From positions 1 to 18,333 of the forward strand of contig JAKPAR010000183.1 of the NCBI GenBank assembly GCA_029779375.1: DNA of 18,333 nt, read 5' to 3'. Below the pieces are notes generated by a model. It worked only from the letters and a program-made list of their open reading frames with translations. It did not search any database and was not told where the DNA came from. Each line of letters opens with the position of its first letter. Position 1 is the stretch's first letter. The stretch is from Bacillota bacterium. Lineage in GTDB: Bacteria; Bacillota; Clostridia; Tissierellales; Sporanaerobacteraceae. The translations under genes and the position numbers were made by a program. Of this stretch, positions 2,623-16,850 are shown one piece after another.

Positions 2623-2639
2623 TAAATAGAAAATAGAAT

Positions 2640-2816
2640 AGTGGTTTAGGTGCCCTATGGGTTAAAAGGGAAAGTGGTGAAATTCCACTACAGCCCCCGC
2701 TACTGTAAATGGTGACGAATTCCATATCCACTGGCTTTGCTGGGAAGGAGGAAAGAGGATTTAGCCATGAGTCAGGAAACCTGCCTGAACTAAAAGCATT
2801 CTTTCGGAGGGAAAGG
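2640..2816 (+). promoter_or_regulatory. Cobalamin riboswitch (AdoCbl-sensing leader)
   Basis: The conserved core elements appear in the right order: GGTGCC (from 2649), AAAAGGGAA with GGTGAAATTCC (about 2665-2686), the near-invariant CAGCCCCCGCTACTGTAA (2691-2708), CCACTGG and GGGAAGG in the middle arm, and the B12 box AGTCAGGAAACCTGCCTG (2770-2787). After the box a short hairpin, CTTTC (2801-2805) with GAAAG (2811-2815) and loop GGAGG, occupies the position of P13. The aptamer lies between the promoter and the first B12 gene and is followed by an intrinsic terminator, so bound adenosylcobalamin should shut off the operon. The outer ends of the aptamer are estimates. Confidence 0.95.
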
Positions 2817-2884: not shown

Positions 2885-3724
2885 GTGACAAGTATTATGG
2901 TACAAGGTACTACTTCTTCTGCAGGAAAGAGTATGCTTTGCACAGCACTGTGTAGGATATTTGTAGAAGATGGATTTACTGTATTTCCATTTAAATCTCA
3001 AAATATGTCATCTAAGTCGTACATCCTTGAAGATGGGCGTGAAATAAGTACAGCACAAGCACTTCAAGCTGTTGCTGCTAGACTTAAGCCAGATTCAAGA
3101 ATGAATCCTATTCTTTTGAAGCCTACTGGAGACAGAACTAGTCAAGTTTTTATAGATGGCGAAAATAAATATACTATGGATGCGGTAGAATATTTTAAAT
3201 TTAAAAGTAGCTTAAAGCCTATGATATTAGAGACATTTAAGGAAATTGAGAGTACTTACGATATAGTAGTGATAGAAGGGGCAGGAAGTCCAGCAGAGAT
3301 AAATTTGAAGGAAAATGATATTGTGAATATGGGCATGGCTGAAATGGCAAATTCTCCGGTATTGTTGATAGCTGATATAGATAGAGGCGGGGTATTTGCA
3401 TCTCTTTATGGAACAGTAATGCTTTTAGAAGAAGAAGAAAGAAAGAGAATAAAAGGACTTGTCATAAATAAGTTTAGAGGAGATATATCTCTTTTACAAT
3501 CTGGCATAGACATGATAGAAAAGCTAACTCATATTCCTGTAGTTGGAACTATTCCTTATGTTCATTTGGAACTGGAAGATGAAGATAGTCTTTTAGATTA
3601 TGAAAAGAATTGCAATAGCAAAGAACAAAGGGAATGGGAAAAGGAAGAAGAGATATCTAAATTTGCAAAGGTAGTTAGAGAAAATATAAATATGGAGTAT
3701 ATTTACTCTGTTTTGAAGAAATAG
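2885..3724 (+). CDS. cbiP: Cobyric acid synthase lacking the glutamine amidotransferase domain
   Basis: First gene of the B12 operon, 279 residues against roughly 480-510 for normal CbiP/CobQ. The ATP-dependent amidoligase domain is intact: P-loop GTTSSAGKS (8-16), the CobQ signature KSQNMSSKSYILEDG, ALQAVAAR, MNPILLKPTGD, VVIEGAGSPAEINL and LIADIDRGGVFASLYG. It ends with VGTIPYVHLELEDEDSLL (220-237). The next residues expected in the family open the type-1 glutaminase domain, with its nucleophilic Cys and catalytic His. Instead a 15-residue Lys/Glu-rich linker leads into ISKFAKVVRENINMEYIYS (257-275), which resembles the extreme C-terminal tail of full-length CbiP. So about 200 residues seem removed in frame. 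Amidation of adenosylcobyrinate a,c-diamide would need ammonia or a partner glutaminase. The GTG start is preceded by GGAGGTGAG. Confidence 0.9.
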   Translation: MTSIMVQGTTSSAGKSMLCTALCRIFVEDGFTVFPFKSQNMSSKSYILEDGREISTAQALQAVAARLKPDSRMNPILLKPTGDRTSQVFIDGENKYTMDAVEYFKFKSSLKPMILETFKEIESTYDIVVIEGAGSPAEINLKENDIVNMGMAEMANSPVLLIADIDRGGVFASLYGTVMLLEEEERKRIKGLVINKFRGDISLLQSGIDMIEKLTHIPVVGTIPYVHLELEDEDSLLDYEKNCNSKEQREWEKEEEISKFAKVVRENINMEYIYSVLKK

Positions 3725-3736
3725 GTGAATTATGTG

Positions 3737-4669
3737 ATGGATATTGTATTGGCAGTTTTTTTGGATTTGCTTATAGGAGATCCCTATAGTTTTCCTCATC
3801 CAGTGAAATATATGGGGAAGCTTATTTCAGTTGAAGACAATTTGCAAAGAAAGATTTTTAAAACTAAAAGAGGACTTAAAATAGGCGGATTTATAATAGC
3901 TTTTTTGAATATTTTTATAGCCTATTTTGTTCCATATTTACTTCTTAAAAGTGTAAAAAAACATGAACTTATTTATCATATAGTCAATGTATATCTTATA
4001 TATACTTGTATTGCTGCTAGATGCCTTCACAAAGAAGCTATGAAAGTATATAAAGGATTTGAAAATGGAATAGAAGAGGCTAGGTTGAGGCTTTCCTATA
4101 TAGTGGGAAGGGATACTGAGAACTTGACTGAATCTGAAATAGTAAGAGCAGATGTAGAAACAGTAGCAGAAAATACTTCTGATGGTGTCATTGCACCTAT
4201 ATTTTATATCTTACTTTTTGGAGCACCTGGTGGAATGATGTATAAAATGATAAACACTATGGATTCTATGCTTGGGTATATGAATGAAAAATATATAGAT
4301 TTAGGCTATTTTCCAGCAAGAGTAGATGATGTATTCAATTTTATTCCAGCAAGGATTTCGGGAATTTTGATGTGCATATCTTCTATGTTTAAATATGATG
4401 TAAAAAATGGATTTAAAATAATGTTTAGAGATAGAAAAAATCATAAAAGTCCTAATTCTGCTTATCCAGAAGGTGCTGTAGCAGGACTTTTGAATATACA
4501 GCTTGGTGGAAATAGCTATTATTTTGGGAAGATAGTAGAAAAGCCTACTATTGGAGATGATAATAGACTATTAGAAAAAGATGATATAAAAAGAACTATT
4601 GAAATAATGTATAGAGCTGAAATGCTTTTGATTTTTATTTATATTTGCATTGTTCTTTTAGGAAAGTAG
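3737..4669 (+). CDS. cbiB: Adenosylcobinamide-phosphate synthase CbiB (membrane)
   Basis: Joins adenosylcobyric acid to aminopropanol phosphate, the product made by CobD next door. About 310 residues, the usual size. The family signatures GDPYSFPHPVKYMG near the N-terminus, AENTSDGVIAPI, GYFPARVDDVFNFIPAR, NSAYPEGAVAGLL and the C-terminal hydrophobic segment are all present. Several hydrophobic stretches (about 1-14, 45-65, 75-92, 150-165, 205-220 and 295-309) fit an integral membrane protein. AGGTGA at 3723-3728 overlaps the upstream stop. It sits well for ATG 3737 (8-base spacing), less well for GTG 3734 and not at all for the in-frame GTG at 3725, which lies inside it. The gene follows cbiP by 12 bases, implying translational coupling. 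Confidence 0.93.
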   Translation: MDIVLAVFLDLLIGDPYSFPHPVKYMGKLISVEDNLQRKIFKTKRGLKIGGFIIAFLNIFIAYFVPYLLLKSVKKHELIYHIVNVYLIYTCIAARCLHKEAMKVYKGFENGIEEARLRLSYIVGRDTENLTESEIVRADVETVAENTSDGVIAPIFYILLFGAPGGMMYKMINTMDSMLGYMNEKYIDLGYFPARVDDVFNFIPARISGILMCISSMFKYDVKNGFKIMFRDRKNHKSPNSAYPEGAVAGLLNIQLGGNSYYFGKIVEKPTIGDDNRLLEKDDIKRTIEIMYRAEMLLIFIYICIVLLGK

Positions 4670-4677
4670 GTGATTTT

Positions 4678-5727
4678 ATGGAACATGGTGGAGATTTGAT
4701 TTCTTATAGCGATTTTTATGATGGAGAACTTATAGATTTTTCTAGCAATATAAATCCATTAGGGCCTCCTTGTGGATTGTATGAAATTCTTTCGAATTCC
4801 CTCCATACTTTGACAATTTATCCAGATATAAAGTATAGACATCTTAAACAGCATATTGCTGATTATTTAAAATGTAAAGTTGAAAATGTGGTGGTTGGCA
4901 ATGGGGCTGTTGAAATAATAGATAATTTTATACAGCTATTTGATAGAGTTGTAGTATTTGTACCTTCTTTTATTGAATATGAAAAACGAGGGAAAATACA
5001 TGAAAAAGAAGTTTTAAAACTAAATTATACAGAAGATTTCAAGATAGATTTAAATCTTTTAGAAACTAATATAAAACATGGAGATGTGCTTATTCTAGGA
5101 AATCCTAACAATCCTACAGGGTTAAGAATTGAAAGAGAAGTATTGTTAAGTATATATAAAATAGTTAAAAAGAAAGATGGGTTTTTACTTTTAGATGAAG
5201 CATTTTATGAATTTTGTCCTGAAGATTATGATAGCATAGATATATTTAAGGATTATGATTTTGAAAATGTAGGGATCATAAGGGCAGCAACTAAATTTTT
5301 TGCCCTTCCAGGAATTCGTTTGGGATATGGATGTACTTCGATAGATATGAAAAAAGCATATGAAATTGTAGAATTGCCTTGGTGTGTAAATTCTTTAGCA
5401 GAAATAGCTGGAAGCTATATTTTTAGTTGCAAAGATTATATGGAAAAAAGCAAGTCTTATATAGAAAATGAAAGAAGATTTATATTTGAAGAGCTTTCAA
5501 AAATAGATGGATTAAAGCCCTATGACACCGATACCAATTATATGCTTATTAAATTGCTTAAGTGGAATGAAGAATATGTATTTAATTATTTTCTTAAAGA
5601 AGGTATGGTTATAAGAAAGTGTTCTAGTTTTCAAGGACTTGATACTAGCTATGTTCGAATAGCTATAAAAAGAAGAGAAGACAATCTAAAACTCATTGAG
5701 ACTTTTAGAAATTTGGAGAGGATGTAA
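4678..5727 (+). CDS. cobD: L-threonine-O-3-phosphate decarboxylase CobD (PLP enzyme)
   Basis: A 349-residue fold-type I PLP enzyme of the histidinol-phosphate aminotransferase family. The opening MEHGGDLISY followed by IDFSSNINPLGPP is typical of CobD, which makes (R)-1-amino-2-propanol phosphate for the B12 nucleotide loop. Other landmarks are GNGAVEII, GNPNNPTG (PLP-ring pocket), LLDEAFYEF, and RAATKFFALPGIRLGY with the Schiff-base lysine at residue 206. The C-terminal phosphate-binding arginine lies in YVRIAIKRREDN. AGGTGA at 4668-4673 precedes ATG 4678 and overlaps the cbiB stop codon; the more upstream in-frame TTG at 4645 lies within cbiB and has no ribosome site. The close homologue HisC is the alternative, but the position between cbiB and cbiA and the N-terminal signature favour CobD. 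Confidence 0.9.
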   Translation: MEHGGDLISYSDFYDGELIDFSSNINPLGPPCGLYEILSNSLHTLTIYPDIKYRHLKQHIADYLKCKVENVVVGNGAVEIIDNFIQLFDRVVVFVPSFIEYEKRGKIHEKEVLKLNYTEDFKIDLNLLETNIKHGDVLILGNPNNPTGLRIEREVLLSIYKIVKKKDGFLLLDEAFYEFCPEDYDSIDIFKDYDFENVGIIRAATKFFALPGIRLGYGCTSIDMKKAYEIVELPWCVNSLAEIAGSYIFSCKDYMEKSKSYIENERRFIFEELSKIDGLKPYDTDTNYMLIKLLKWNEEYVFNYFLKEGMVIRKCSSFQGLDTSYVRIAIKRREDNLKLIETFRNLERM

Positions 5728-5728
5728 A

Positions 5729-7048
5729 ATGAAGAGTATCATGATTTCGGCTCCTTCTAGTGGAAGCGGGAAGACTACAATTACATTGGGAATTGTAAGG
5801 GCCCTTAAAAAAAGAGGATTAAATGTATGCTGCTATAAGACAGGTCCAGATTATATAGATAAGAAATTTTTAGAATTGGCTTCTGGACTGGATGCGGGGA
5901 ATTTAGATATTCATCTTATGGGAATGGATGGAATAGAGGATTCTTTTTCTATGGGGAAGGGAGAAATTGCAGTAGTAGAAGGTGCTATGGGATATTTTGA
6001 TGGAATTTACAATACTTTCGAAAATTCATCTTATGATATTTCAAGAAAGCTTAAAATAAATACAATACTTGTATATACTCCAAAAGGAGAAATGTTTTCA
6101 GCTATACCCAAGATAAAGGGCATGGTAGATTTTAAATATTCAAATATAGTTGGAGTTATTTTAAATAAAGTCAGAAAAGATATATATGTATTGATGAAAG
6201 AACAAATTGAAAAATATATAGGCATAAAAGTATTAGGTTTTGTAGAAGAGGATAAGGAATTGGAAATAAAGAGTAGGCATCTAGGACTTGTCCAAGGTGA
6301 AGAAATAGAAAATATTGATGAGCTCATAGAAAGAGCTTCTGTACAAATAGAAAACAATGTAAATTTAGATAGTTTGATAGATAGTATGAGTGAAGTAGTG
6401 ACAAAAGAATACACATATCCAGCAAAAAGAGATGTAGTGGTGGGCATAGCTTATGACAGAGCTTTTTCTTTTTATTATAGAGAAAATTTAAATTTATTTG
6501 AAAACACTACAAATGTTGTTTATTTTTCTCCTATGAAGGATAAGCAAATTCCTAAATGCGATCTTTTATATTTAGGAGGAGGATATCCTGAAGTTTTCAG
6601 TGAATTTCTCTCAAAAAATACAGAGATGAGAAAATCAATAAAAAGATTTGCTGAAAATGGAGGACATATTTATGCAGAATGTGGAGGATTTATGTATTTG
6701 ATGAGTGCTATAGAAGACCATGAAATGTGTGGCGTATTTAATGGAACGAGTAAAATGACTGACAAGTTGCAAAGATTTGGCTATATAGATATAGAATTAA
6801 TGAAGGATTGTATTTTAGGGGAAAAAGGTGATATTCTGACTGGTCATGAATTTCACAAATCTATGACCCAAATAGATGGAGAAGAAATCTATAGTATAAC
6901 CAAACCTATGAGTGATAAAAGGTGGAATTGTGGATATATGTATAAAAATGTGTTGGCGGGGTATCCTCATATAAATTTTTTAGGAAATATGAAGGCATTT
7001 TTAAATTTGTTAGATATTGTTGAAAAGGAGAAATCAAAATGTATGTAA
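5729..7048 (+). CDS. cbiA: Cobyrinate a,c-diamide synthase CbiA
   Basis: Amidates the a and c side chains of cobyrinate using ATP and glutamine. The 439-residue length is normal. The N-terminal synthetase domain has the P-loop SAPSSGSGKTT (7-17), YKTGPDYID, ASGLDAGNLD and VEGAMGYFDG. The C-terminal glutaminase domain is complete: LLYLGGGYPEVF, then AECGGFMYL with the nucleophile Cys318, and the His in GYPHINFLGN. This contrasts with the domain-less CbiP of the same operon. The start is ATG 5729, with GGAGAGGA (5715-5722) 6 bases upstream; an in-frame codon at 5696 lies within cobD. One base separates it from the cobD stop. The nickel F430 homologue CfbB is an alternative in methanogens but not in this context. 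Confidence 0.95.
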   Translation: MKSIMISAPSSGSGKTTITLGIVRALKKRGLNVCCYKTGPDYIDKKFLELASGLDAGNLDIHLMGMDGIEDSFSMGKGEIAVVEGAMGYFDGIYNTFENSSYDISRKLKINTILVYTPKGEMFSAIPKIKGMVDFKYSNIVGVILNKVRKDIYVLMKEQIEKYIGIKVLGFVEEDKELEIKSRHLGLVQGEEIENIDELIERASVQIENNVNLDSLIDSMSEVVTKEYTYPAKRDVVVGIAYDRAFSFYYRENLNLFENTTNVVYFSPMKDKQIPKCDLLYLGGGYPEVFSEFLSKNTEMRKSIKRFAENGGHIYAECGGFMYLMSAIEDHEMCGVFNGTSKMTDKLQRFGYIDIELMKDCILGEKGDILTGHEFHKSMTQIDGEEIYSITKPMSDKRWNCGYMYKNVLAGYPHINFLGNMKAFLNLLDIVEKEKSKCM

Positions 7049-7659
7049 AGAAACCTATGGCAATAGAAAAAAAGAGCATGGAGATTATTGAGGAAGTTAT
7101 GGGAGATACTTACTTTTCTGAAGAAGAAAAGTTGATTGTCAAAAGAATGATTCATACTACAGGAGATTTTGATTATAGAAAAATAGCAGTATTTCAAAAT
7201 GATTTTTTAAATACTGCTGTTGAAGGAATAAAAGCTGGTGGAACTATATTCACTGACACCAAAATGGTAGCAGCAGGAATAAATAAAACAGCTCTTGCAA
7301 AGACTTCATGCCAATTGAAATATTTTATAGATGATAAAAAAGTAGTAGAACTTTCTAAAACATTGGGGACTACTAGATCGGCTTGTGCAATAGATGCAGC
7401 GGTATCTGAGGGGATAGATATGTTTGTTATAGGCAATGCACCTACAGCTATTTTTAGGCTTCTTGAATTGATAGATGAAGGAAAGGTAAATCCAAAATTT
7501 GTTGTGGGGGTTCCGGTTGGCTTTGTAGGAGCAGCTGAATCAAAAGAAAGTTTAAGAAAATATGCTATACCTTCTATATCAACAGTTGGAACTAAAGGTG
7601 GGAGCAATGTAGCAGCATCTATTATGAATGCAATATTATATATGGTGGTAGGAAGATGA
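7039..7659 (+). CDS. cbiC: Cobalt-precorrin-8 methylmutase CbiC
   Basis: Moves the C11 methyl to C12, converting cobalt-precorrin-8 to cobyrinate. The 206 residues match the family length. The catalytic histidine lies in KRMIHTTGDFDY (His39), and the substrate-binding signature GGTIFTDTKMVAAGI and the C-terminal VGVPVGFVGAAESK with GTKGGSNVAAS are present. The ATG at 7039 lies inside the last codons of cbiA (10-base overlap), with AAAGGAGAAA about 8 bases upstream, so translation is coupled. Confidence 0.95.
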   Translation: MYVKKPMAIEKKSMEIIEEVMGDTYFSEEEKLIVKRMIHTTGDFDYRKIAVFQNDFLNTAVEGIKAGGTIFTDTKMVAAGINKTALAKTSCQLKYFIDDKKVVELSKTLGTTRSACAIDAAVSEGIDMFVIGNAPTAIFRLLELIDEGKVNPKFVVGVPVGFVGAAESKESLRKYAIPSISTVGTKGGSNVAASIMNAILYMVVGR

Positions 7660-8735
7660 ATGAAGAACTATATGTAATAAAAGAAGGCAAAAAACTTAAG
7701 TGTGGCTATACAACTGGCAGTTGTGCTGCAGCAGCTGCTAAAGCGGCAGCTAAATTGCTTAAAGGTGAAAGAGTTTCTTTTATAGAGATAAATACTCCTG
7801 CTAAAATCAAATTGAAACTTGAAGTTAAAAATCAATATATAGATGGAGAGTGGGCTCATTCTACTATTATAAAAGATGGTGGAGATGATCCAGATGTGAC
7901 AGATGGCATGGAAATATGTGCAAAGGTAAGGAAAAGAAATGATGGACAAGTTTTCATAGATGGAGGAGAGGGAATAGGCAGAATATGTAGAAAAGGACTG
8001 TTTGGAGAGGTGGGGGATGCAGCTATAAATCCTGTGCCTAGAATGATGATAGAAAAGGAGATAAAAGAAATTTCAAATTGCGGATATGATGTAATTGTAT
8101 ATGCTCCTATGGGAAAAGAAATTGCCAAGAAAACTTACAATAAAAACATAGGAATAGAAGGAGGTATTTCTATAATTGGAACTAAAGGTATAGTATATCC
8201 TATGTCAGAAGATGCTCTCATAAAGACTATATATTTAGAAGTTGATACAGTGGGTGAAAATATAGGAAAAGAAAATATAATACTTGTACCAGGAAACTAT
8301 GGAGAAAAAATTGCGGATACATTGAATTTACAAGGAGGGAAAGTAAAAATTTCAAACTATATAGGAGACAGTATATTGTATGTCTATAATAGCGAATTTA
8401 AGTCTATGACCCTCGTTGGGCATATTGGAAAATTTTCAAAATTATCAATAGGAGTATTTAATACTCACAGCAGAGTGTGTGATGGAAGAATTGAAGCTTT
8501 TATATACTATTTAGCACTGAAGGGTGCTCCTATGGATATTATAGAAAAAGTAAAGGCTGCTATGACGGCTGAAGAAGCCTTAAATATATGTATAGACAAT
8601 GGATACGGCAAAATAGTCTATGATATGGAAAGAGGTTGTGAAGAAAGGATAAAAGTGTATTTGAAAGATAAAGATTATCCTGTGAAGGTGATTATATATT
8701 CTATGGAAAGAGGTGCATTTATTTGCTCACAGTAG
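7656..8735 (+). CDS. cbiD: Cobalt-precorrin-5B C1-methyltransferase CbiD
   Basis: Adds the C1 methyl after ring contraction and deacylation. It is the SAM enzyme specific to the anaerobic route and is unrelated to the other methylases of the cluster. The 359 residues and the near-invariant opening LKCGYTTGSCAAAAAKAA are diagnostic. Further conserved blocks are DGGDDPDVTDG, GGEGIGRICRKGL, INPVPRMMI, GGISIIGTKGIVYPMSE and GHIGKFSKLSIG. ATG overlaps the cbiC stop (ATGA, 7656-7659). The ribosome site is weak (GGTAGG close to the start), consistent with reinitiation after cbiC. Confidence 0.96.
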   Translation: MNEELYVIKEGKKLKCGYTTGSCAAAAAKAAAKLLKGERVSFIEINTPAKIKLKLEVKNQYIDGEWAHSTIIKDGGDDPDVTDGMEICAKVRKRNDGQVFIDGGEGIGRICRKGLFGEVGDAAINPVPRMMIEKEIKEISNCGYDVIVYAPMGKEIAKKTYNKNIGIEGGISIIGTKGIVYPMSEDALIKTIYLEVDTVGENIGKENIILVPGNYGEKIADTLNLQGGKVKISNYIGDSILYVYNSEFKSMTLVGHIGKFSKLSIGVFNTHSRVCDGRIEAFIYYLALKGAPMDIIEKVKAAMTAEEALNICIDNGYGKIVYDMERGCEERIKVYLKDKDYPVKVIIYSMERGAFICSQ

Positions 8736-9319
8736 CTGGTATAGGACCTGGAAATACTAAATATTTAACAGTTCAAGTATTGGAAGCTATAAAATCAGCG
8801 GAATGTATTGTAGCTTTTGGGAGAGCAGGAGAGTCAATAAAAGATTTGAGAAGCGATTATATAAAAGTTAAAAATATAGATGAAGTGTATAGATATTCTT
8901 TGAGGAAGGAAAATATCTTGATTCTTGCATCTGGGGATCCGTGTTTTTATGGTATACTAGAGTATTTGAAAAATAAAGGTATAGTAGTAGATGAAGTTCT
9001 TTCTGGATTGTCTTCTTTTCAATATATGATGGGAAAGCTTAAGAAAAGTTGGCACAATTCTAGATTTTTATCTCTTCATGGGAGAGAAGAAAGCCTAGAA
9101 TCAGTACTTGATACTCCTATGACTATTATACTTACAGATAGCATAAATACACCAAAGACTATATCAAAAAAATTGCATGAATTGAGTATGAGGGGGACTA
9201 TGTATATAGGATACAATTTGTCCTATGAAGATGAATGCATATTGAAAATAAATATAGGAGAAGAAATAGAAGATATCTCTTCTTTGGCAGTGGTGGTGGT
9301 GGAAAATGAAATGGATTAG
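8723..9319 (+). CDS. cbiE: Cobalt-precorrin-7 C5-methyltransferase CbiE
   Basis: A 198-residue class III (tetrapyrrole-type) SAM methylase. It opens with LTVAGIGPGNTKYLT, the glycine-rich loop of the family, and carries LASGDPCFYGI, which corresponds to the conserved GDP loop. It methylates C5 of cobalt-precorrin-7. In some bacteria CbiE and CbiT are fused (CobL); here they are separate, adjacent genes overlapping by 14 bases. The start is the TTG at 8723, since AAGAGGTG (8708-8715) lies 7 bases upstream and the protein would otherwise lose its first strand. It overlaps the end of cbiD by 13 bases. Confidence 0.93.
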   Translation: MLTVAGIGPGNTKYLTVQVLEAIKSAECIVAFGRAGESIKDLRSDYIKVKNIDEVYRYSLRKENILILASGDPCFYGILEYLKNKGIVVDEVLSGLSSFQYMMGKLKKSWHNSRFLSLHGREESLESVLDTPMTIILTDSINTPKTISKKLHELSMRGTMYIGYNLSYEDECILKINIGEEIEDISSLAVVVVENEMD

Positions 9320-9854
9320 AGATGAAGAATTTATCAGGGGAAATATTCCTATGACTAAATTTAATATTAGGACACTTGCTATTGCCTATTTAGCTATTGA
9401 AAAAGGAGATAGACTATTAGATATTGGAGCTGGAACAGGTAGCATATCTATAGAAGCAGCATTGCAAGGTGCAAATGTCTGGGCTATTGAAAAGGAGAAA
9501 GAAGGAATAGATATTATAACTAAAAATAGTATTAAATTTAATGTGAAGTTAAATCTAATAGAGGGACAAGCTCCAGAGGCTTTACCAGATATTGAGATAA
9601 ACAAATGTTTTATAGGTGGCAGTGGAGGGAAATTTAATGAAATATTTAAGTATTTAGAAGCTCATCTAGAAACAGGCGGTATTGTCTGTGGAAATTTTAT
9701 TAGACTACAAAATTTAAACAATTGTATTCAATGTTTAGAAGAATATAAATATGAAAATATAGAAGTACAGTTAATTCAATCTTCTTATATGGATAAAATT
9801 GGACTTATGAAGGGACAAAATCCAATATTTATAGTTAAGGGAGTGAAAATATGA
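9306..9854 (+). CDS. cbiT: Cobalt-precorrin-6B C15-methyltransferase (decarboxylating) CbiT
   Basis: A 182-residue class I Rossmann methylase that methylates C15 and removes the C12 acetate carboxyl. The opening block DEEFIRGNIPMTKFNIRTLAI is the CbiT signature, followed by the SAM-binding motif LLDIGAGTGSISIEAA, the acidic residue after the second strand (VWAIEKEKEG), and FIGGSGGKFNEI. The ATG at 9306 overlaps the cbiE end. The ribosome site is only a GTGGTGGTGG run, so translation probably depends on coupling to cbiE. Confidence 0.94.
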   Translation: MKWIRDEEFIRGNIPMTKFNIRTLAIAYLAIEKGDRLLDIGAGTGSISIEAALQGANVWAIEKEKEGIDIITKNSIKFNVKLNLIEGQAPEALPDIEINKCFIGGSGGKFNEIFKYLEAHLETGGIVCGNFIRLQNLNNCIQCLEEYKYENIEVQLIQSSYMDKIGLMKGQNPIFIVKGVKI

Positions 9855-10513
9855 AAAAATTATATGGAATAGGAACAGGTCCAGGCGATAAAGAGTTGTT
9901 GACATTAAAAGCAGTAAAAGAAATAGAATTGGCCAGTGTAATTTTTGCACCAAATAATAAGGGGAAAAACATGGCTTTGGATACAGTAGAGGATTTTATT
10001 CATGGGAAAAAGATAGTACTGTTGGACTTTTCTATGGGGAAGGTAGGAAAAGAAGATTATATAAATGCAGCAGAGATTATATACAATGAAATCCCAGAAG
10101 AAGGTACTGGGGCTTATTTAACTATAGGGGATTCTATGATATATAGTACCTTTATTTATATCATGAAAGAATTGGAGAAAAAGAATATTCAAGTAGAAAT
10201 CATTCCTGGCATACCTTCTTTTGTAGCAGGAGCAGCAAAGTCCAAGACTCCTTTAATTTTAAAAGGAGAAAGTTTTTTACTTTGTGATGAATTTAATGAA
10301 GAAGTATTAGATAAAATAGATTCTATTTGTGTATTAAAGACATTAGAGAATAAAAAAGAAATTCTAAATAATTTAGAAAATAAAGATTATGTCTATAGAT
10401 ATATGAAAAGAGTTACATTGGAAAATGAAGAAATACTTGTAGATAGAGACCAGATACTTAAAGACAGAGATTATATATCGTTTATTTTTGGAAGGAGGGA
10501 AAGAAATGATTAG
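9851..10513 (+). CDS. cbiL: Cobalt-factor II C20-methyltransferase CbiL
   Basis: A 220-residue class III SAM methylase. It acts first among the ring-modifying enzymes encoded here, methylating C20 of cobalt-sirohydrochlorin (cobalt-factor II). Visible features are KLYGIGTGPGDKELLTLKA at the N-terminus, then IFAPNNKGKNMALD, which resembles the CbiL/CobI substrate region, LTIGDSMIYSTFIYIM (the GD loop) and EIIPGIPSFVAGAA. Among the paralogous methylases the S-Y/I-F-A-P element and GTGPGD with no following cap fit CbiL best. It overlaps cbiT by four bases (ATGA). Confidence 0.92.
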   Translation: MKKLYGIGTGPGDKELLTLKAVKEIELASVIFAPNNKGKNMALDTVEDFIHGKKIVLLDFSMGKVGKEDYINAAEIIYNEIPEEGTGAYLTIGDSMIYSTFIYIMKELEKKNIQVEIIPGIPSFVAGAAKSKTPLILKGESFLLCDEFNEEVLDKIDSICVLKTLENKKEILNNLENKDYVYRYMKRVTLENEEILVDRDQILKDRDYISFIFGRRERND

Positions 10514-11261
10514 TTTTGTTGGTGCAGGTCCAGGAGATGTAGACCTTATAACAGTCAAAGGCAGAAGACTTTTAGAACAAGCAGATATTGTTATTTATGC
10601 TGGGAGTTTAGTGTCTAAGGCACATTTAGACTATTGCAAAGATAAATGTAAATTTTATAATAGTGCTTATATGACTTTGGAGGAAGTTGTAAAAATAATG
10701 GTAGAAGGCGAAGAAAAGGGCCTTAAAGTTGTGAGACTTCATACAGGGGATCCTACTATATATGGAGCAATAAAAGAACAGATGGACCTTCTTGATAAAA
10801 AAGATATCCAGTATGAGGTTATTCCAGGAGTTAGTTCTTTTACTGCAGCTTGTTCAGCTATAAAAAGTGAATTTACACTTCCAAGTTTAAGTCAAACTGT
10901 TATACTTACTCGAATAGAAGGAAGAACCAGTGTACCAGAAAGTGAAGATTTAGAAAAATTAGCTTCTTATGAGGCTTCTATGGCAATATTTCTTTCTGTT
11001 CAGAATATAGAAAATGTAGTTGAAAAGTTGAGAAAAGGATATAAAAGAGGAGATGTACCTATTGCAGTAGTATACAAAGCTACTTGGGAAGATGAAAAAA
11101 TCCTTATAGGGACTTTAGATGATATTGTGGACAAAGTAAAAAAAGAAGGCATAAATAAAACTGCACAAATATTGGTGGGAGATTTTATAGATGGGTCTTA
11201 TGAAAGATCTAAATTGTATGATCCAAATTTTACTCATGAGTACAGGGAGGCAAAAAATTGA
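10506..11261 (+). CDS. cbiF: Cobalt-precorrin-4 C11-methyltransferase CbiF
   Basis: A 251-residue class III SAM methylase with the typical CbiF/CobM sequence MISFVGAGPGDVDLITVKGRRLLEQAD, IYAGSLV, RLHTGDPTIYGAIKEQMD, EVIPGVSSFTAACSAI and the C-terminal DPNFTHEYREAK. It methylates C11 of cobalt-precorrin-4. The start is ATG 10506, with AAGGAGGG (10492-10499) 6 bases upstream; an in-frame TTG at 10488 precedes that site and is not used in my reading. The gene overlaps the end of cbiL by 8 bases. Confidence 0.95.
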   Translation: MISFVGAGPGDVDLITVKGRRLLEQADIVIYAGSLVSKAHLDYCKDKCKFYNSAYMTLEEVVKIMVEGEEKGLKVVRLHTGDPTIYGAIKEQMDLLDKKDIQYEVIPGVSSFTAACSAIKSEFTLPSLSQTVILTRIEGRTSVPESEDLEKLASYEASMAIFLSVQNIENVVEKLRKGYKRGDVPIAVVYKATWEDEKILIGTLDDIVDKVKKEGINKTAQILVGDFIDGSYERSKLYDPNFTHEYREAKN

Positions 11262-12280
11262 AAGTAGCATGTCTATCTTTTACAGATAAAGGTAGAGATA
11301 TAGGACGCAAATTAGAGAAATATGGAGATAAGAAAGATTTTTTGGAAATTTGTCACTATGAAAATTCAGAAGTTGAGGGCGGAATAAAATCTATATTTGA
11401 AAAGATAGTTAAGGAATATGAAGGCATAGTATTTATTTCAGCTACGGGTATAGCAGTACGAATGATTTCTCCGTATATAATAGATAAGACTGTAGATCCA
11501 GCTGTGGTAGTTGTTGATGACTTGGGAAGGTATTCGATAAGCTTATTGTCAGGACACATAGGTGGAGGAAATAGATTGTGTGAAATTGTAGGGGAAATAC
11601 TGGGGGCAAAGCCAATCATAACTACTGCTTCTGATGGGAGAAATATAGAGGCGGTAGATATATTTGATATGAGAAAAGGTTATGTTATGGAGAATATGGA
11701 AGAGGTAAAGAAGATAACTAGTATGATGGTTAATGATAAAAGGATAGGGTATTTTTCTGAAATGGAAGGCCATATAAAATATGACAATTTGGTTTTTATT
11801 TATGGATTAGAAAATATAAAAGAATATGAAGACAAGTTAGATGGAGTATTGTGTATAAGTTCTATAAAACAAATAGATATCAATATACCTCATGTAATAT
11901 TGAGACCTAAAAATTTAAATATAGGAGTAGGTTGTAAAAAAGGTACTAGTGGAAAAGAAATAATAAATGCTATATTAGATGTGCTTGATAAAAACAATTT
12001 TTCATCTAATTCTATAAAGTCTATAAATACTATTGAAATAAAAAGTGATGAATTAGGTATTTTAGAAGCTGCAAGTTATTTTAAATGCCCTAGGAATATT
12101 TATACTATAGAAGAAATAAAAATGGTGGAAGAAAAATTTGAAAAAAGCGATTTTGTTAAAAGAAATGTTGGAGTTTATTGTGTCAGTGAACCTTGTGCAT
12201 ATCTATCGGGAGGAGAGATAGTAGTAGGAAAGACTAAATACAATGGTATAACTGTGGCAGTTTCAAAGGAGATGATTTAG
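11258..12280 (+). CDS. cbiG: Cobalt-precorrin-5A hydrolase CbiG
   Basis: Opens the delta-lactone of cobalt-precorrin-5A and releases acetaldehyde, the hallmark step of the oxygen-independent pathway. The 340 residues show the three CbiG regions: an N-terminal alpha/beta domain (KVACLSFTDKG), a central domain with FISATGIAVRMISPYI, DPAVVVVDDLGRY and LLSGHIGGGN, and a C-terminal domain starting at NIGVGCKKGTSG and including VSEPCAYLSGGEIVVGK. The TTG at 11258 is the start, with GGGAGG (11245-11250) 7 bases upstream. It overlaps the cbiF stop as TTGA, so the two genes are probably translationally coupled. Confidence 0.95.
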   Translation: MKVACLSFTDKGRDIGRKLEKYGDKKDFLEICHYENSEVEGGIKSIFEKIVKEYEGIVFISATGIAVRMISPYIIDKTVDPAVVVVDDLGRYSISLLSGHIGGGNRLCEIVGEILGAKPIITTASDGRNIEAVDIFDMRKGYVMENMEEVKKITSMMVNDKRIGYFSEMEGHIKYDNLVFIYGLENIKEYEDKLDGVLCISSIKQIDINIPHVILRPKNLNIGVGCKKGTSGKEIINAILDVLDKNNFSSNSIKSINTIEIKSDELGILEAASYFKCPRNIYTIEEIKMVEEKFEKSDFVKRNVGVYCVSEPCAYLSGGEIVVGKTKYNGITVAVSKEMI

Positions 12281-12281
12281 T

Positions 12282-13001
12282 ATGTCTAAACTTTATGTAG
12301 TGGGGATAGGGCCAGGCGGAAGAGAAAATATGACAATTAGAGCAGTAGAGACTATAAAAAGATGTTCAGTAATAGTAGGATATACTTCTTATATTGAATA
12401 TTTAGGAGATTTAAAAGAAGGAAAGGAAATTTATTCAACAGGAATGAGGGGAGAAATTGAAAGATGTAATATGGCCATAAAAAAAGTCAAAGAAGGGAAA
12501 GATACTGCCATCATAAGTACTGGAGATTCAGGTCTCTATGGTATGGCAGGGCCTATTTTGGAATTGGCAGAAGGAATAGAAGTAGAAATAATCCCTGGAA
12601 TAGTAGCAGCTTTTTCAGCTGCTAGCGAATTGGGTTCTCCTATTATGCATGATTATTGTTCTATTAGTTTGAGTGACTTGATGACTTCTTGGGATATAAT
12701 AGAAAAGAGAATAGAATATGCATCTTGTGGAGATTTTGTTATAACAATTTACAATCCCAAGAGTAAAACTAGGACTGATCATTTAAAAAAAGCTGTGGAT
12801 ATAATGCTTAAATATAAAGCACAAAAGACACCTGTGGGAATAGTTAAAAATTCGGGAAGGGCCAATACGGAAAAATATATTACTACTTTAGATGATATAG
12901 ACTATGATATTATAGATATGATGTGTGTTTTAATAATTGGAAATAGCAATACATATATAAAAGATGACTTCATTATAACTCCTAGGGGGTATGAAATTTG
13001 A
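12282..13001 (+). CDS. cbiH: Cobalt-factor III C17-methyltransferase CbiH
   Basis: A 239-residue class III SAM methylase that methylates C17 with ring contraction. Signatures are KLYVVGIGPGGRENMTIRAVE, IVGYTSYIEYLGDL, ISTGDSGLYGMAGP, EIIPGIVAAFSAASELG, the CbiH/CobJ-specific MHDYCSISLSDLMTSWDIIE, and ITIYNPKSKTR. AAGGAGATGA lies 6 bases before the ATG, which falls one base after the cbiG stop. Confidence 0.96.
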   Translation: MSKLYVVGIGPGGRENMTIRAVETIKRCSVIVGYTSYIEYLGDLKEGKEIYSTGMRGEIERCNMAIKKVKEGKDTAIISTGDSGLYGMAGPILELAEGIEVEIIPGIVAAFSAASELGSPIMHDYCSISLSDLMTSWDIIEKRIEYASCGDFVITIYNPKSKTRTDHLKKAVDIMLKYKAQKTPVGIVKNSGRANTEKYITTLDDIDYDIIDMMCVLIIGNSNTYIKDDFIITPRGYEI

Positions 13002-13741
13002 TATGGATAATAGGGGGAACTAGTGAAGCAAGTACTCTTTCTCGAAAGATAGAAGATATAGATGATTTTGTCATAACTAGTGCTACTGAAAGTGAAGAGG
13101 AATTTATAGATTTGGACAAGCTAATTGTTGGGAGAATGGGATTAGAAGATATGTTAAATTTTGTTGAAGAGAAGAATATAAGTCTTATAGTTGATTTATC
13201 TCATCCCTATGCCAAAATTGTAAGTGAAAATGCCAGGAAAGTATCTAAAATAAAAGATATTATGTATATAAGATATGTAAGAAAAAAATCGGAAATTCCT
13301 TCGGATGCTATATATTTAAAAACTTATGAAGAATGTATAGAATATCTAAAAAATATTTCTGGGACGGTATTTTTCACTACAGGTTCAAAGAATATAGGAG
13401 ATTTTGAAAAAATAAAAAGGGATAATAGATTTATTTATAGGGTACTTCCTGCTAATAGTAGTATACAAGAATGCAAAAAGTGGAATGTAACAATGAAGGA
13501 TATTGTAGCTATTTTAGGACCATTTTCTATAGATTTTAATAAATCAATGTTTAAAGAATACGATGTAGATTATGTAGTCATGAAAGATAGTGGAGAAGCA
13601 GGGGGAACATTAGAAAAGATACTTGCCTGTAGTGAGTTAAATATAGTGCCTATAGTCATAGGGAGAGAAAAAGAAGATGGAATTGATGATTTAGACGAAA
13701 TTGAAAAAGTCATAAGAAATCACAAAAAGAAAGGAGAATAG
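12998..13741 (+). CDS. cbiJ: Cobalt-precorrin-6A reductase CbiJ
   Basis: An NAD(P)H-dependent reductase that reduces cobalt-precorrin-6A to 6B. The 247 residues match the CbiJ/CobK family: IWIIGGTSEASTLSRKI at the N-terminus, DLSHPYAKIVSENAR, YIRYVRK, VFFTTGSKNIGDF, RVLPA and the C-terminal VVMKDSGEAGGTLEKI with PIVIGREKE. The only plausible start is TTG 12998, because AGGGGGT (12984-12990) is 7 bases upstream and the first nucleotide-binding strand follows at once. It overlaps cbiH by four bases (TTGA). Confidence 0.94.
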   Translation: MIWIIGGTSEASTLSRKIEDIDDFVITSATESEEEFIDLDKLIVGRMGLEDMLNFVEEKNISLIVDLSHPYAKIVSENARKVSKIKDIMYIRYVRKKSEIPSDAIYLKTYEECIEYLKNISGTVFFTTGSKNIGDFEKIKRDNRFIYRVLPANSSIQECKKWNVTMKDIVAILGPFSIDFNKSMFKEYDVDYVVMKDSGEAGGTLEKILACSELNIVPIVIGREKEDGIDDLDEIEKVIRNHKKKGE

Positions 13742-13743
13742 CT

Positions 13744-14013
13744 GTGGAAAATTCATATAGGTTTTATAGAAATACTGCTTGTAGTTATTTCCCATGTCAC
13801 AAGGTGAAAAATGAAGAGGATTTTAATTGTATGTTTTGCTACTGTCCTCTATATTTTTTGGAAGACTGTGGAGGGAATCATAGGGATTACAATGGTATAA
13901 AGGATTGTAGCAATTGTCTTATACCTCATTCACCCAATGGATATGACTATATCAACAACAAAATAATGGCTATAAATAGAGAAAAAATGAAGAACAATGA
14001 TTCTTGCAAATAA
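13744..14013 (+). CDS. Cysteine-rich small-domain protein ending the B12 operon
   Basis: An 89-residue protein with nine cysteines: residues 13, 18, 29, 32, 34, 42, 55, 58 and 88. Eight are packed in C-x4-C-x10-C-x2-C-x-C-x7-C-x12-C-x2-C, ending in the motif CSNCLIPHSPNGYDYI. This matches what I know as the cysteine-rich small domain (PF04071 as I recall it), a presumed metal-binding module of unknown function that recurs near B12 genes. The start is GTG 13744, with AAAGGAGA (13729-13736) 7 bases upstream, two bases after the cbiJ stop, so it is the last gene of the operon. A cobalt- or other metal-handling role is an inference from the ligands and context; a structural zinc fold is equally possible. 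Confidence 0.85.
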   Translation: MENSYRFYRNTACSYFPCHKVKNEEDFNCMFCYCPLYFLEDCGGNHRDYNGIKDCSNCLIPHSPNGYDYINNKIMAINREKMKNNDSCK

Positions 14014-14227: not shown

Positions 14228-15340
14228 GTGTTTAATGAACTGATGAGAAGTTTTTTACTTATTTTCGTGGCTGAAATGGGAGATAAAACTCAAATTTTAG
14301 CTATGACTTTTGCAACTCAATATAAAGTACGACAAGTGCTTTTAGGTGTTTTTTTAGGAGTATTTTTAAATCATGGTCTAGCTATAGTTCTTGGAAGATA
14401 TATTTCAAAAATTGTTCCAATGAGTTTTATTCAAATAGTTGCAGGTTTACTTTTTGTAGTTTTTGGAATATTGGCATTAATTGATGAAGACGATGAAGAG
14501 CAAGGTAAAGATAAAAAGAACTTTGGCCCTGTGATGACTGTAGCCTTAGCATTTTTCGTTGGAGAATTGGGGGATAAAACTCAACTTACTGCTATGACAC
14601 TGGCTACAGAAGGTTCTTATCCATTTTTCATACTTATGGGTACTACTTTGGGGATGATAGCTGTAAGTGGTATAGGGATTTTTATAGGAAGTAAAATAGG
14701 AGAAAAAATTCCAGATATTTTCATAAAACTCATTTCATCTCTTGTATTTATAACTTTTGGGACATTGAAACTTTTTCAGACAATACCAAGTAAGTATTTA
14801 ACATCTTTAAACATTGGAATTTATTTTGGTATATTGTCATTATTGGCTATTATATTGATAAGAAAACTCATAGTGAAAAGGAAATCTGGAGAAAAATCAG
14901 CATTGAAGGAAGTGGCAGCAACTCTTTATATGCAGACGCAAGAATTAAATGAAGCGGTAAATAATATTTGTCTAGGTGAAGGAACTTGCGGTATTTGTAT
15001 GAGGGATAAATGTATTATTGGATACACTAAAAAAATTCTTAGAGATGCAAGAGAAAATGAAGAATATTATATTGATGACGAGATTGTTTTTAATGTAAAT
15101 GATAAAAAATTTGATATAGATAAAGTGGTAGAGGCATTGAGTTTAGTGATAGAAGATTATATAAGATATGGAGTAGATAAAGATGATAAATTTATTGTCA
15201 ATAAAGTCAGAGTAGCACTAGAAAAAGTTGCTTTTGGAAATGAGTTATATTTTGATGGGAATATAGATAAATATATAAAAAATATTTATAGCCAAAATCA
15301 GTATATTGGAACAAAAATAGAAGAGAGTATTGTCAGATAA
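14228..15340 (+). CDS. GDT1/UPF0016-family cation exporter (probable Mn2+ exporter) with C-terminal extension
   Basis: Two copies of the UPF0016/TMEM165 transport motif, EMGDKTQ (residues 16-22) and ELGDKTQ (113-119), sit in the first transmembrane helices of two three-helix repeats covering roughly residues 5-215. The family exports Mn2+ or Ca2+, and the yybP-ykoY switch just upstream supports manganese. The total of 370 residues is well above the roughly 190-230 of simple bacterial members. After the last helix and a basic stretch (RKLIVKRKSG) comes a soluble, mostly helical region of about 150 residues containing CLGEGTCGICMRDKC (C-x5-C-x2-C-x4-C), which I cannot assign. GTG 14228 is the start, with AAAAGGAGG (14212-14220) 7 bases upstream. 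Confidence 0.92.
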   Translation: MFNELMRSFLLIFVAEMGDKTQILAMTFATQYKVRQVLLGVFLGVFLNHGLAIVLGRYISKIVPMSFIQIVAGLLFVVFGILALIDEDDEEQGKDKKNFGPVMTVALAFFVGELGDKTQLTAMTLATEGSYPFFILMGTTLGMIAVSGIGIFIGSKIGEKIPDIFIKLISSLVFITFGTLKLFQTIPSKYLTSLNIGIYFGILSLLAIILIRKLIVKRKSGEKSALKEVAATLYMQTQELNEAVNNICLGEGTCGICMRDKCIIGYTKKILRDARENEEYYIDDEIVFNVNDKKFDIDKVVEALSLVIEDYIRYGVDKDDKFIVNKVRVALEKVAFGNELYFDGNIDKYIKNIYSQNQYIGTKIEESIVR

Positions 15341-16166: not shown

Positions 16167-16850
16167 TCAATCTGTAAATATTTGTGTCCAATAAGTTGTA
16201 CCGCTTTTATCTGTAGCATAACCTATACCAATTTTGTTGAAGTTTGGATTCAATATATTTGCACGGTGTCCTTGAGAGTTCATCCATCCATTTACCACAG
16301 AAGAAGCACTGTAGTAGCCTTTGGCAATATTTTCTCCTGCAGTTTTGTATTTTATTCCAAAGCTTTTCATCATAGTGAAAGAATCTCCATAAGTAGGTGA
16401 AGTGTGGCTAAAATAATTTTTATCAGCCATATCTTGAGATTTAGTTCTAGCTACTTTTGAAAGTTCTTCACTGTAAGTAAAGGGAGCTAGTCCTTCTTTT
16501 TTTCTCTCTTCATTTATGAGTTTTAAGACTTCTAACTCCATTGCATTTGCTGTACTTGATACAGAAGTATTGGTATTAGTGTTAGTGTTGGTATTAGTGT
16601 TAGTATTGGTATTAGTGTTGGTATTAGTATTAGGTACAGCATATCTATTATAAGTATATTTATATGGTGAATAGGTTACATATTTATATAGGACATTTTG
16701 ATTATTTATTTGATAACAGTTTGAGCAATTGGTATTTATGGTATATCTTATGGTTGTGGAACCTCCAGCACTAGCAAAGCTTGATGAAGAAAGCAGTAAC
16801 AGAGATATAGTTGTCGACAATAGAGTTTTTTTCGCATTTCCTTTTTTCAT
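16167..16850 (-). CDS. Secreted CAP-domain (SCP/YkwD-like) protein with Asn-Thr repeat linker
   Basis: A 227-residue exported protein. A signal peptide with a Lys-rich start and a Leu/Ser-rich core ends near SSSSFASA. It is followed by a Tyr/Asn-rich stretch containing CSNC, then eleven Asn-Thr repeats, then a bacterial CAP domain (about residues 104-227). CAP landmarks are ELEVLKLINEERKKEGL, YFSHTSPTYGD (His), AGENIAKGY (Glu), and GHRANILNPNFNKIGIGYA (His). Bacterial CAP proteins of this kind are extracellular or cell-surface, sometimes spore-associated; their biochemical role is unsettled. AAGGAGGTAAT lies about 8 bases before the ATG. It is convergent with the TetR gene and downstream of tyrS on the same strand, but a terminator after tyrS makes it an independent unit. 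Confidence 0.92.
   Translation of the reverse strand: MKKGNAKKTLLSTTISLLLLSSSSFASAGGSTTIRYTINTNCSNCYQINNQNVLYKYVTYSPYKYTYNRYAVPNTNTNTNTNTNTNTNTNTNTNTSVSSTANAMELEVLKLINEERKKEGLAPFTYSEELSKVARTKSQDMADKNYFSHTSPTYGDSFTMMKSFGIKYKTAGENIAKGYYSASSVVNGWMNSQGHRANILNPNFNKIGIGYATDKSGTTYWTQIFTD
16566..16631 (-). repeat. Eleven tandem hexanucleotide units encoding Asn-Thr
   Basis: On the minus strand, eleven consecutive AAY-ACY codon pairs encode eleven Asn-Thr dipeptides. The third bases vary (T or C), so the tract is not perfectly uniform. Because the unit is six bases, gain or loss of copies keeps the frame and changes only the linker length. Confidence 0.95.

Follow-up and report, generated by a model that had tools for sequence, protein, structure and literature searches.

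The closest described relatives of the gene studied here are the cobyric acid synthases CobQ/CbiP (EC 6.3.5.10; models NF001989 and TIGR00313). CbiP amidates carboxylates b, d, e and g, and CobQ accepts ammonia in vitro. In a passage of one review, the positions amidated by CbiP are printed as b, d, e and f (PMC7242693), and CobB is described in part of another paper as taking glutamine or ammonia (PMC8123684). CTP synthase likewise consists of an amidoligase and then a glutaminase, and a passage on it places a tunnel loop in the amidoligase (PMC8325340). In MurT/GatD, the GATase_3 glutaminase is a separate subunit. BioD, a dethiobiotin synthetase, is a carboxylating enzyme. Type N NAD synthetase (NadE) is likewise a synthetase without a glutaminase, with a different fold from CbiP and in another pathway, and the ammonia-dependent asparagine synthetase AsnA is another ammonia user. 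A tethered glutaminase is thought necessary for glutamine-dependent amidotransferases because cellular free ammonia is low. According to excerpts of a 2012 paper, single-domain NAD synthetase was concluded to use ammonia in vivo and was counted, next to glutamine synthetase, as no more than the second enzyme known to do so (PMC3376133).

We analyzed an 18,333-nucleotide stretch of DNA (the window) from a Bacillota bacterium of the family Sporanaerobacteraceae (GCA_029779375.1, contig JAKPAR010000183.1), in which cbiP heads a cobalamin operon, downstream of a cobalamin riboswitch (Table 1). Its start codon is GTG, preceded by a ggaggtg-type site. NF001989 covers the product at model positions 2-239 of 480 (381 bits, cut-off 273) and TIGR00313 at positions 1-239 of 477 (326.5 bits, cut-off 309.9), i.e., the amidoligase domain scores above the family cut-offs of both NCBIfam cobyric acid synthase models, while Pfam found no GATase_3 match in the 279-residue protein. 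The short gene resembles CobQ/CbiP in its amidoligase domain, its terminal helices and its operon place, with the riboswitch, cbiB, the aminotransferase gene, cbiA and cbiC nearby, and differs in having no GATase_3 and in replacing L43, N44 and R56 of the long forms. We consider it likely that the gene encodes an ammonia-using cobyric acid synthase and forms part of a recurrent glutamine-to-ammonia switch in cobalamin amidation.

The aminotransferase gene is presumably cobD. Among the corrin ring genes, cbiC was identified by Pfam, and homologues of the remaining ones sit in like clusters at related loci; their names (cbiD, E, T, L, F, G, H and J) are our assignment from the order of the open reading frames. 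A small cysteine-rich domain protein (PF04071) at 13744-14013 closes the cbi genes, and its homologue adjoins cobD in loci L144 and L145. Further downstream lies a GDT1-type cation antiporter (14228-15340), whose translation shows a long C-terminal extension containing several cysteines. A minus-strand gene at 16167-16850 encodes a putatively secreted protein that carries an Asn-Thr repeat, and we take the region after the repeat to resemble a CAP/SCP domain.

Table 1. Features of the cobalamin operon and of the short cbiP within the window.
Feature	Position	Strand	Basis or remark
Cobalamin riboswitch upstream of cbiP	2631..2802	+	Rfam RF00174, 118.4 bits, cut-off 31.5
Short cbiP (279 aa), cobyric acid synthase lacking the glutaminase	2885..3724	+	ORF; NF001989, TIGR00313
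Amidoligase core, residues 1-238	2885..3598	+	Pfam CbiA/AAA_26; dethiobiotin synthetase fold
Residues 43-44, S-K in window, L-N in long forms	3011..3016	+	Lost in 6 (43) and 4 (44) of 7 short clades
Residue 56, T in window, R in long forms	3050..3052	+	Lost in 6 of 7 short clades
Linker, residues 239-253, site of glutaminase in long forms	3599..3643	+	Short/long alignment
Terminal helices, residues 254-279, homologous to long-form C terminus	3644..3721	+	Alignment, models
cbiB	3725..4669	+	Pfam CobD_Cbib, 354 bits
cobD-type aminotransferase (name presumed)	4681..5727	+	Pfam Aminotran_1_2; ORF opens at 4645, start codon tentative
cbiA, full length	5729..7048	+	NF002204, 415.7 bits; GATase_3 at 6440-6985
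cbiC, D, E, T, L, F, G, H, J, corrin ring genes, same operon (names after cbiC presumed)	7039..13741	+	

The initial annotation had described an intact amidoligase, a short linker and a kept C-terminal tail within 279 residues, and this architecture was borne out by the family matches, the alignment and the structure models. The alignment comprised 66 short rows (65 distinct, as the window gene appears twice, also as L101) and 99 long rows; L010 (stop codon), L034 (ambiguous letters), L134 (broken copy), L199 (open end) and exact duplicates were dropped from the CbiP set. The P-loop and most other conserved columns are retained in the amidoligase core of the window. Alignment with the 99 long forms put the insertion point of the glutaminase between residues ~240-253 and residue 254 of the window protein, and paired residues 254-279 with the long-form C terminus. 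The annotation was also right that the type-1 amidotransferase domain is absent with no remnant. Its spacing of 12 bases between the cbiP stop and cbiB holds for the ATG at 3737; the alternative GTG at 3725 directly abuts the stop, and neither start leaves space for a remnant.

AlphaFold models of the window short form and of the long form L020 each had a mean pLDDT of 92. Their secondary structures are alike up to residue 224, small details aside, and both models have two terminal helices beyond the insertion point (250-267 and 270-277 in the window, 454-472 and 475-481 in L020). In structure comparison, the short model matched dethiobiotin synthetase, BioD, best (1dbs, E 9.5e-10, 16% identity), and the long model GatD; a search by sequence found no solved relative. 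Taken together, the models, the alignment and the dethiobiotin synthetase match indicate that the long-form glutaminase is an insert placed ahead of the last helices of the amidoligase fold, and that the short form is this fold minus the insert.

A gene this short could be a decaying copy or the product of an assembly or sequencing deletion. Single broken copies do occur: L010 of Clostridium sp. N3C has a stop codon, G173 holds a broken second copy of short cbiP (L134, G173:C28), and the cbiP of G100 has an in-frame TGA. The form itself recurs, however, in the congener G209, whose CbiP is also 279 residues long and 96% identical to that of the window, and in many separate assemblies, some of a single contig, on which ground an assembly gap was rejected. 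Decay was rejected because the dN/dS of cbiP between the window and G209 is 0.068, i.e., strong purifying selection, and this is the lowest value among the five operon genes measured (0.088-0.139 for cbiC, cbiB, cbiD and cbiA). CbiP lengths were bimodal among 164 distinct proteins, at 276-300 (n = 65, window included) and 434-565 residues (n = 99) with none between. For the family, the order-wide survey and these lengths already refute decay or deletion, to which we give a negligible chance in the window. The annotation had taken the domain to be lost cleanly and in frame from a gene that still functions in its operon, a view supported by purifying selection, by the sharing of the form among relatives and by the upstream riboswitch.

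The short form proved common to the congener and many other relatives. In a survey of 249 genomes of the order, a match was returned for 123; by hand count from the match table, these comprise 60 with the short and 53 with the long form, G198, where the gene is cut by a contig end, and nine genomes with weak unrelated matches alone. The 60 short-form genomes include G100, with its in-frame TGA, and G256, whose cbiP lies in two pieces, and none of the 60 showed a long CbiP alongside the short one. No second cbiP was found in the genome of the window (88.8% complete). A sample of the phylum (398 genomes) gave 228 genomes with a match, and among the matches listed most were long; the short form with the kept tail was verified from the sequence in G423, G553, G582, G367, G535, G341, G460, G579 and G622. 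G579 has one long and one short CbiP (L187 and L167), and G184 has two short ones from different clades (L135 and L136). Named holders of the short form include Anaerosalibacter bizertensis, Tissierella praeacuta, Ezakiella coagulans and Treponema putidum; the eight genomes searched in the genus of the last comprised six with the short form, one with the long form and one with neither.

A tree was built from 47 short and 52 long representatives of the 66 and 99 rows, with the linker columns omitted and L101 left out. The CbiP form changes eight times on the careful tree (5-95% bootstrap range 8-8, from a bootstrap not fully settled), and the starred branches force at least six changes. Constraining all short forms to one clade cost 163.6 log units and was rejected (p-AU 0.0015). 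The short clade of the window (27 rows) adjoins long forms of Caloramator, G342 and L016; the other short clades are f8 with f13, G258/G260/G261, one copy in G184, G423, and G553/G367, and the short f55, f88 and G582 stand near one another. The number of changes in itself says nothing on direction, which leaves room for an ancestral short form into which the glutaminase was later inserted. Against this order of events speak the nesting of the short clades within long forms and the rejection of a single short clade, since one and the same domain would have had to enter at one site several times over; we regard this order as highly improbable. The nesting instead favours repeated loss of the glutaminase, as read from the sequence tree. 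For NadE, fusion or fission is read as one event in the part of the source concerned (PMC3376133), in contrast to the eight changes of CbiP.

If the glutaminase is gone from CbiP, it could act in trans, either as the domain of CbiA or as a stand-alone protein like GatD for MurT, an arrangement for which MurT/GatD is a precedent. The CbiA of the window is encoded in the same operon and, as annotated, keeps its glutaminase, with Cys318 (6680-6682) and His414 (6968-6970) present, so its lineage has not abandoned glutamine in both steps. Among short-CbiP genomes, however, the CbiA nucleophile was missing in 38 of 46, in comparison with 7 of 48 others (Fisher p 2.4e-11, relatedness ignored). The 46 are those scored of 47 short-CbiP genomes with a CbiA, G244 being omitted as split over two contigs; the 48 consist of 44 genomes with the long form and of G039, G191, G193 and G199, where the search for CbiP found none. 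G029, G183 and G201, in which the gene is in pieces, were left out, as was G025, which has no CbiP. All seven comparison losses lie among the 44 long-form genomes, which alone gave a Fisher p of 2e-10; they are six genomes of genus g19 with a long CbiP and G111. In the short-CbiP genomes the cysteine has given way to G, A or S, and in the seven others to G.

The CbiA cysteine is kept in the window, G209, G205, G207, G171-G173 and G258, and within the window's own family it is replaced by S in G206 and by G in G208. On a quick tree of CbiA, the cysteine state changes seven times, at least five of them forced by starred branches. Both CbiP form and CbiA cysteine follow phylogeny, and the three independent pairs are too few for a test. 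A further CbiA set, overlapping the 46, lacked the cysteine in 11 of 13 proteins (e.g., Tissierella praeacuta and Treponema putidum), and examples of the Cys-less glutaminase domain are L147, L148, L152 and L169. Three of the 99 long CbiP proteins lack their own nucleophile, with Asn or Ala instead (L041, L054 and L220, from Facklamia, Ignavigranum and G043). The glutaminase cysteine of CTP synthase is kept in all ten aligned sequences from these genomes, including that of the window, so the loss of glutaminase function is not general as far as this one enzyme was compared.

The genome of the window (402 contigs, 88.8% complete) contains a single GATase_3 domain, that of CbiA, and no orphan CobQ-type glutaminase was found in it, in contrast to MurT/GatD, where the partner gene is present. 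CbiC is present in 51 of the 60 short-form genomes, and in six of these 51 (G032, G033, G034, G035, G260 and G261) CbiA was not found by protein or family search, although corrin ring genes and short CbiP are there (L151 and L153-L157). Two of these assemblies consist of few contigs, namely one for G261 and two for G034. A search for AAA_26 proteins in G033, G260 and G261 turned up nothing but the short CbiP, and G260 and G261 gave no GATase_3 match at all despite their ring genes. G034 does have a stand-alone GATase_3, which would suit a glutaminase in trans, but it was rejected as a partner of CbiP, as it is GatD, encoded one base behind murT; no CTP synthase N-terminal domain was found in the two contigs of this genome. 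Second or third weak GATase_3 matches occur in several short-form genomes (e.g., G209, G208, G221 and G033, the last with two matches in total) and are in principle candidate partners. The second GATase_3 matches seen in one set of the genomes we take to be HisH, PurL-type, DJ-1/PfpI-type and GatD proteins. Among the 53 long-form genomes, CbiC without CbiA was seen in G188 alone (87% complete); G198, with its cut CbiP, also has CbiC without CbiA. In a passage of a review, cbiA (printed cbiA/cobA) is given for 99% of predicted cobamide producers (PMC8123684).

A docking glutaminase would keep an interface on the amidoligase, so the parallel loss of residues would be expected once none docks. 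We scored 87 columns, each at least 93% conserved in long forms, over seven short clades. L43 and R56 were lost in six of the seven, Q87 in five, and N44, E53 and K79 in four, whereas the P-loop columns were untouched; the window protein itself retains E53, K79 and Q87. Six columns were lost in at least four short clades, against a mean of 0.21 and a maximum of 3 in 20000 shuffles. Residues 43, 44 and 56 may be interface or tunnel residues. Profile alignment of CobQ with CTP synthase covered 34 columns by default (probability 34), and a forced longer alignment set M41-S42-L43 of CobQ against M52-S53-P54 of CTP synthase with low confidence, making the mapping of the tunnel loop onto CbiP at most suggestive. 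These losses, the lack of a second GATase_3 in the window's genome and the Cys-less or absent CbiA of relatives together make a glutaminase in trans unlikely. Of the two donors that the annotation had left open, free ammonia or a separate glutaminase, ammonia is therefore favoured, on the grounds of the single GATase_3, the CbiA-less genomes, the residue losses and the Cys-less CbiA.

Short CbiP might alternatively do other work, such as the salvage re-amidation of damaged or incompletely amidated corrinoids. In seven of the 60 short-CbiP genomes CbiC and CbiA both went unmatched, and in one of the seven, G235, cbiP adjoins cbiB and cobD (L170), which would suit such a role. With CbiC in 51 and a long CbiP in none of the 60, four amidations would then be left without an enzyme, and genomes with CbiP and no CbiA have, in passages of two papers, already been classed as cobyrinate-diamide salvagers (PMC6593275, PMC8123684). 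We therefore judge a function other than cobyric acid synthesis to be very unlikely.

On ammonia as the donor, the annotation had added that an amino-acid-fermenting lifestyle would make its use plausible. An ammonia-rich life of these groups is plausible from their known physiology. By hand count, a glycine reductase match was present in 54 of the 60 genomes with the short form and in 41 of the 53 with the long form, six of the 41 being weak, which corresponds to a Fisher p of 0.08 for all matches and 0.002 with the weak ones set aside, relatedness ignored in both. At most, the survey leans the expected way; both groups commonly carry glycine reductase, so the lifestyle is plausible and not established.

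We propose that CbiP was reduced to an ATP-dependent amidoligase when the glutaminase insert was dropped in frame, leaving the fold complete. Using ATP, the short enzyme would activate the four carboxylates on adenosylcobyrinic acid a,c-diamide, and the activated carboxylates would be amidated by free ammonia of the cytosol. By analogy, it may work like single-domain NAD synthetase. The switch would take more than one route, as CbiP loses its domain and CbiA often loses its nucleophilic cysteine or disappears. In the CbiA-less genomes, the a,c-diamide would be made by the short CbiP or else by another enzyme. A bolder version, in which amidation in the whole anaerobe group proceeds without glutamine and short CbiP alone makes all six amides (a and c included) from ammonia in G032-G035, G260 and G261, is possible, and we hold it as tentative.

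Among the entries listed by searches of open-licence full text in PubMed Central, none described a short CbiP or a Cys-less CbiA. The short CbiP most likely represents a new variant inside a known family and a step in a broader, recurring abandonment of glutamine in cobalamin amidation. It matters for annotation rules in which CbiP has to be of full length or CbiA has to be present, and it could supply compact enzymes for making B12 cell-free from ammonium. The source of the a,c-diamide in CbiA-less genomes becomes a testable question. In the pathway of a complex cofactor, nature has here run an experiment several times over, and one end was apparently reached by three routes, namely domain excision, nucleophile mutation and gene loss.
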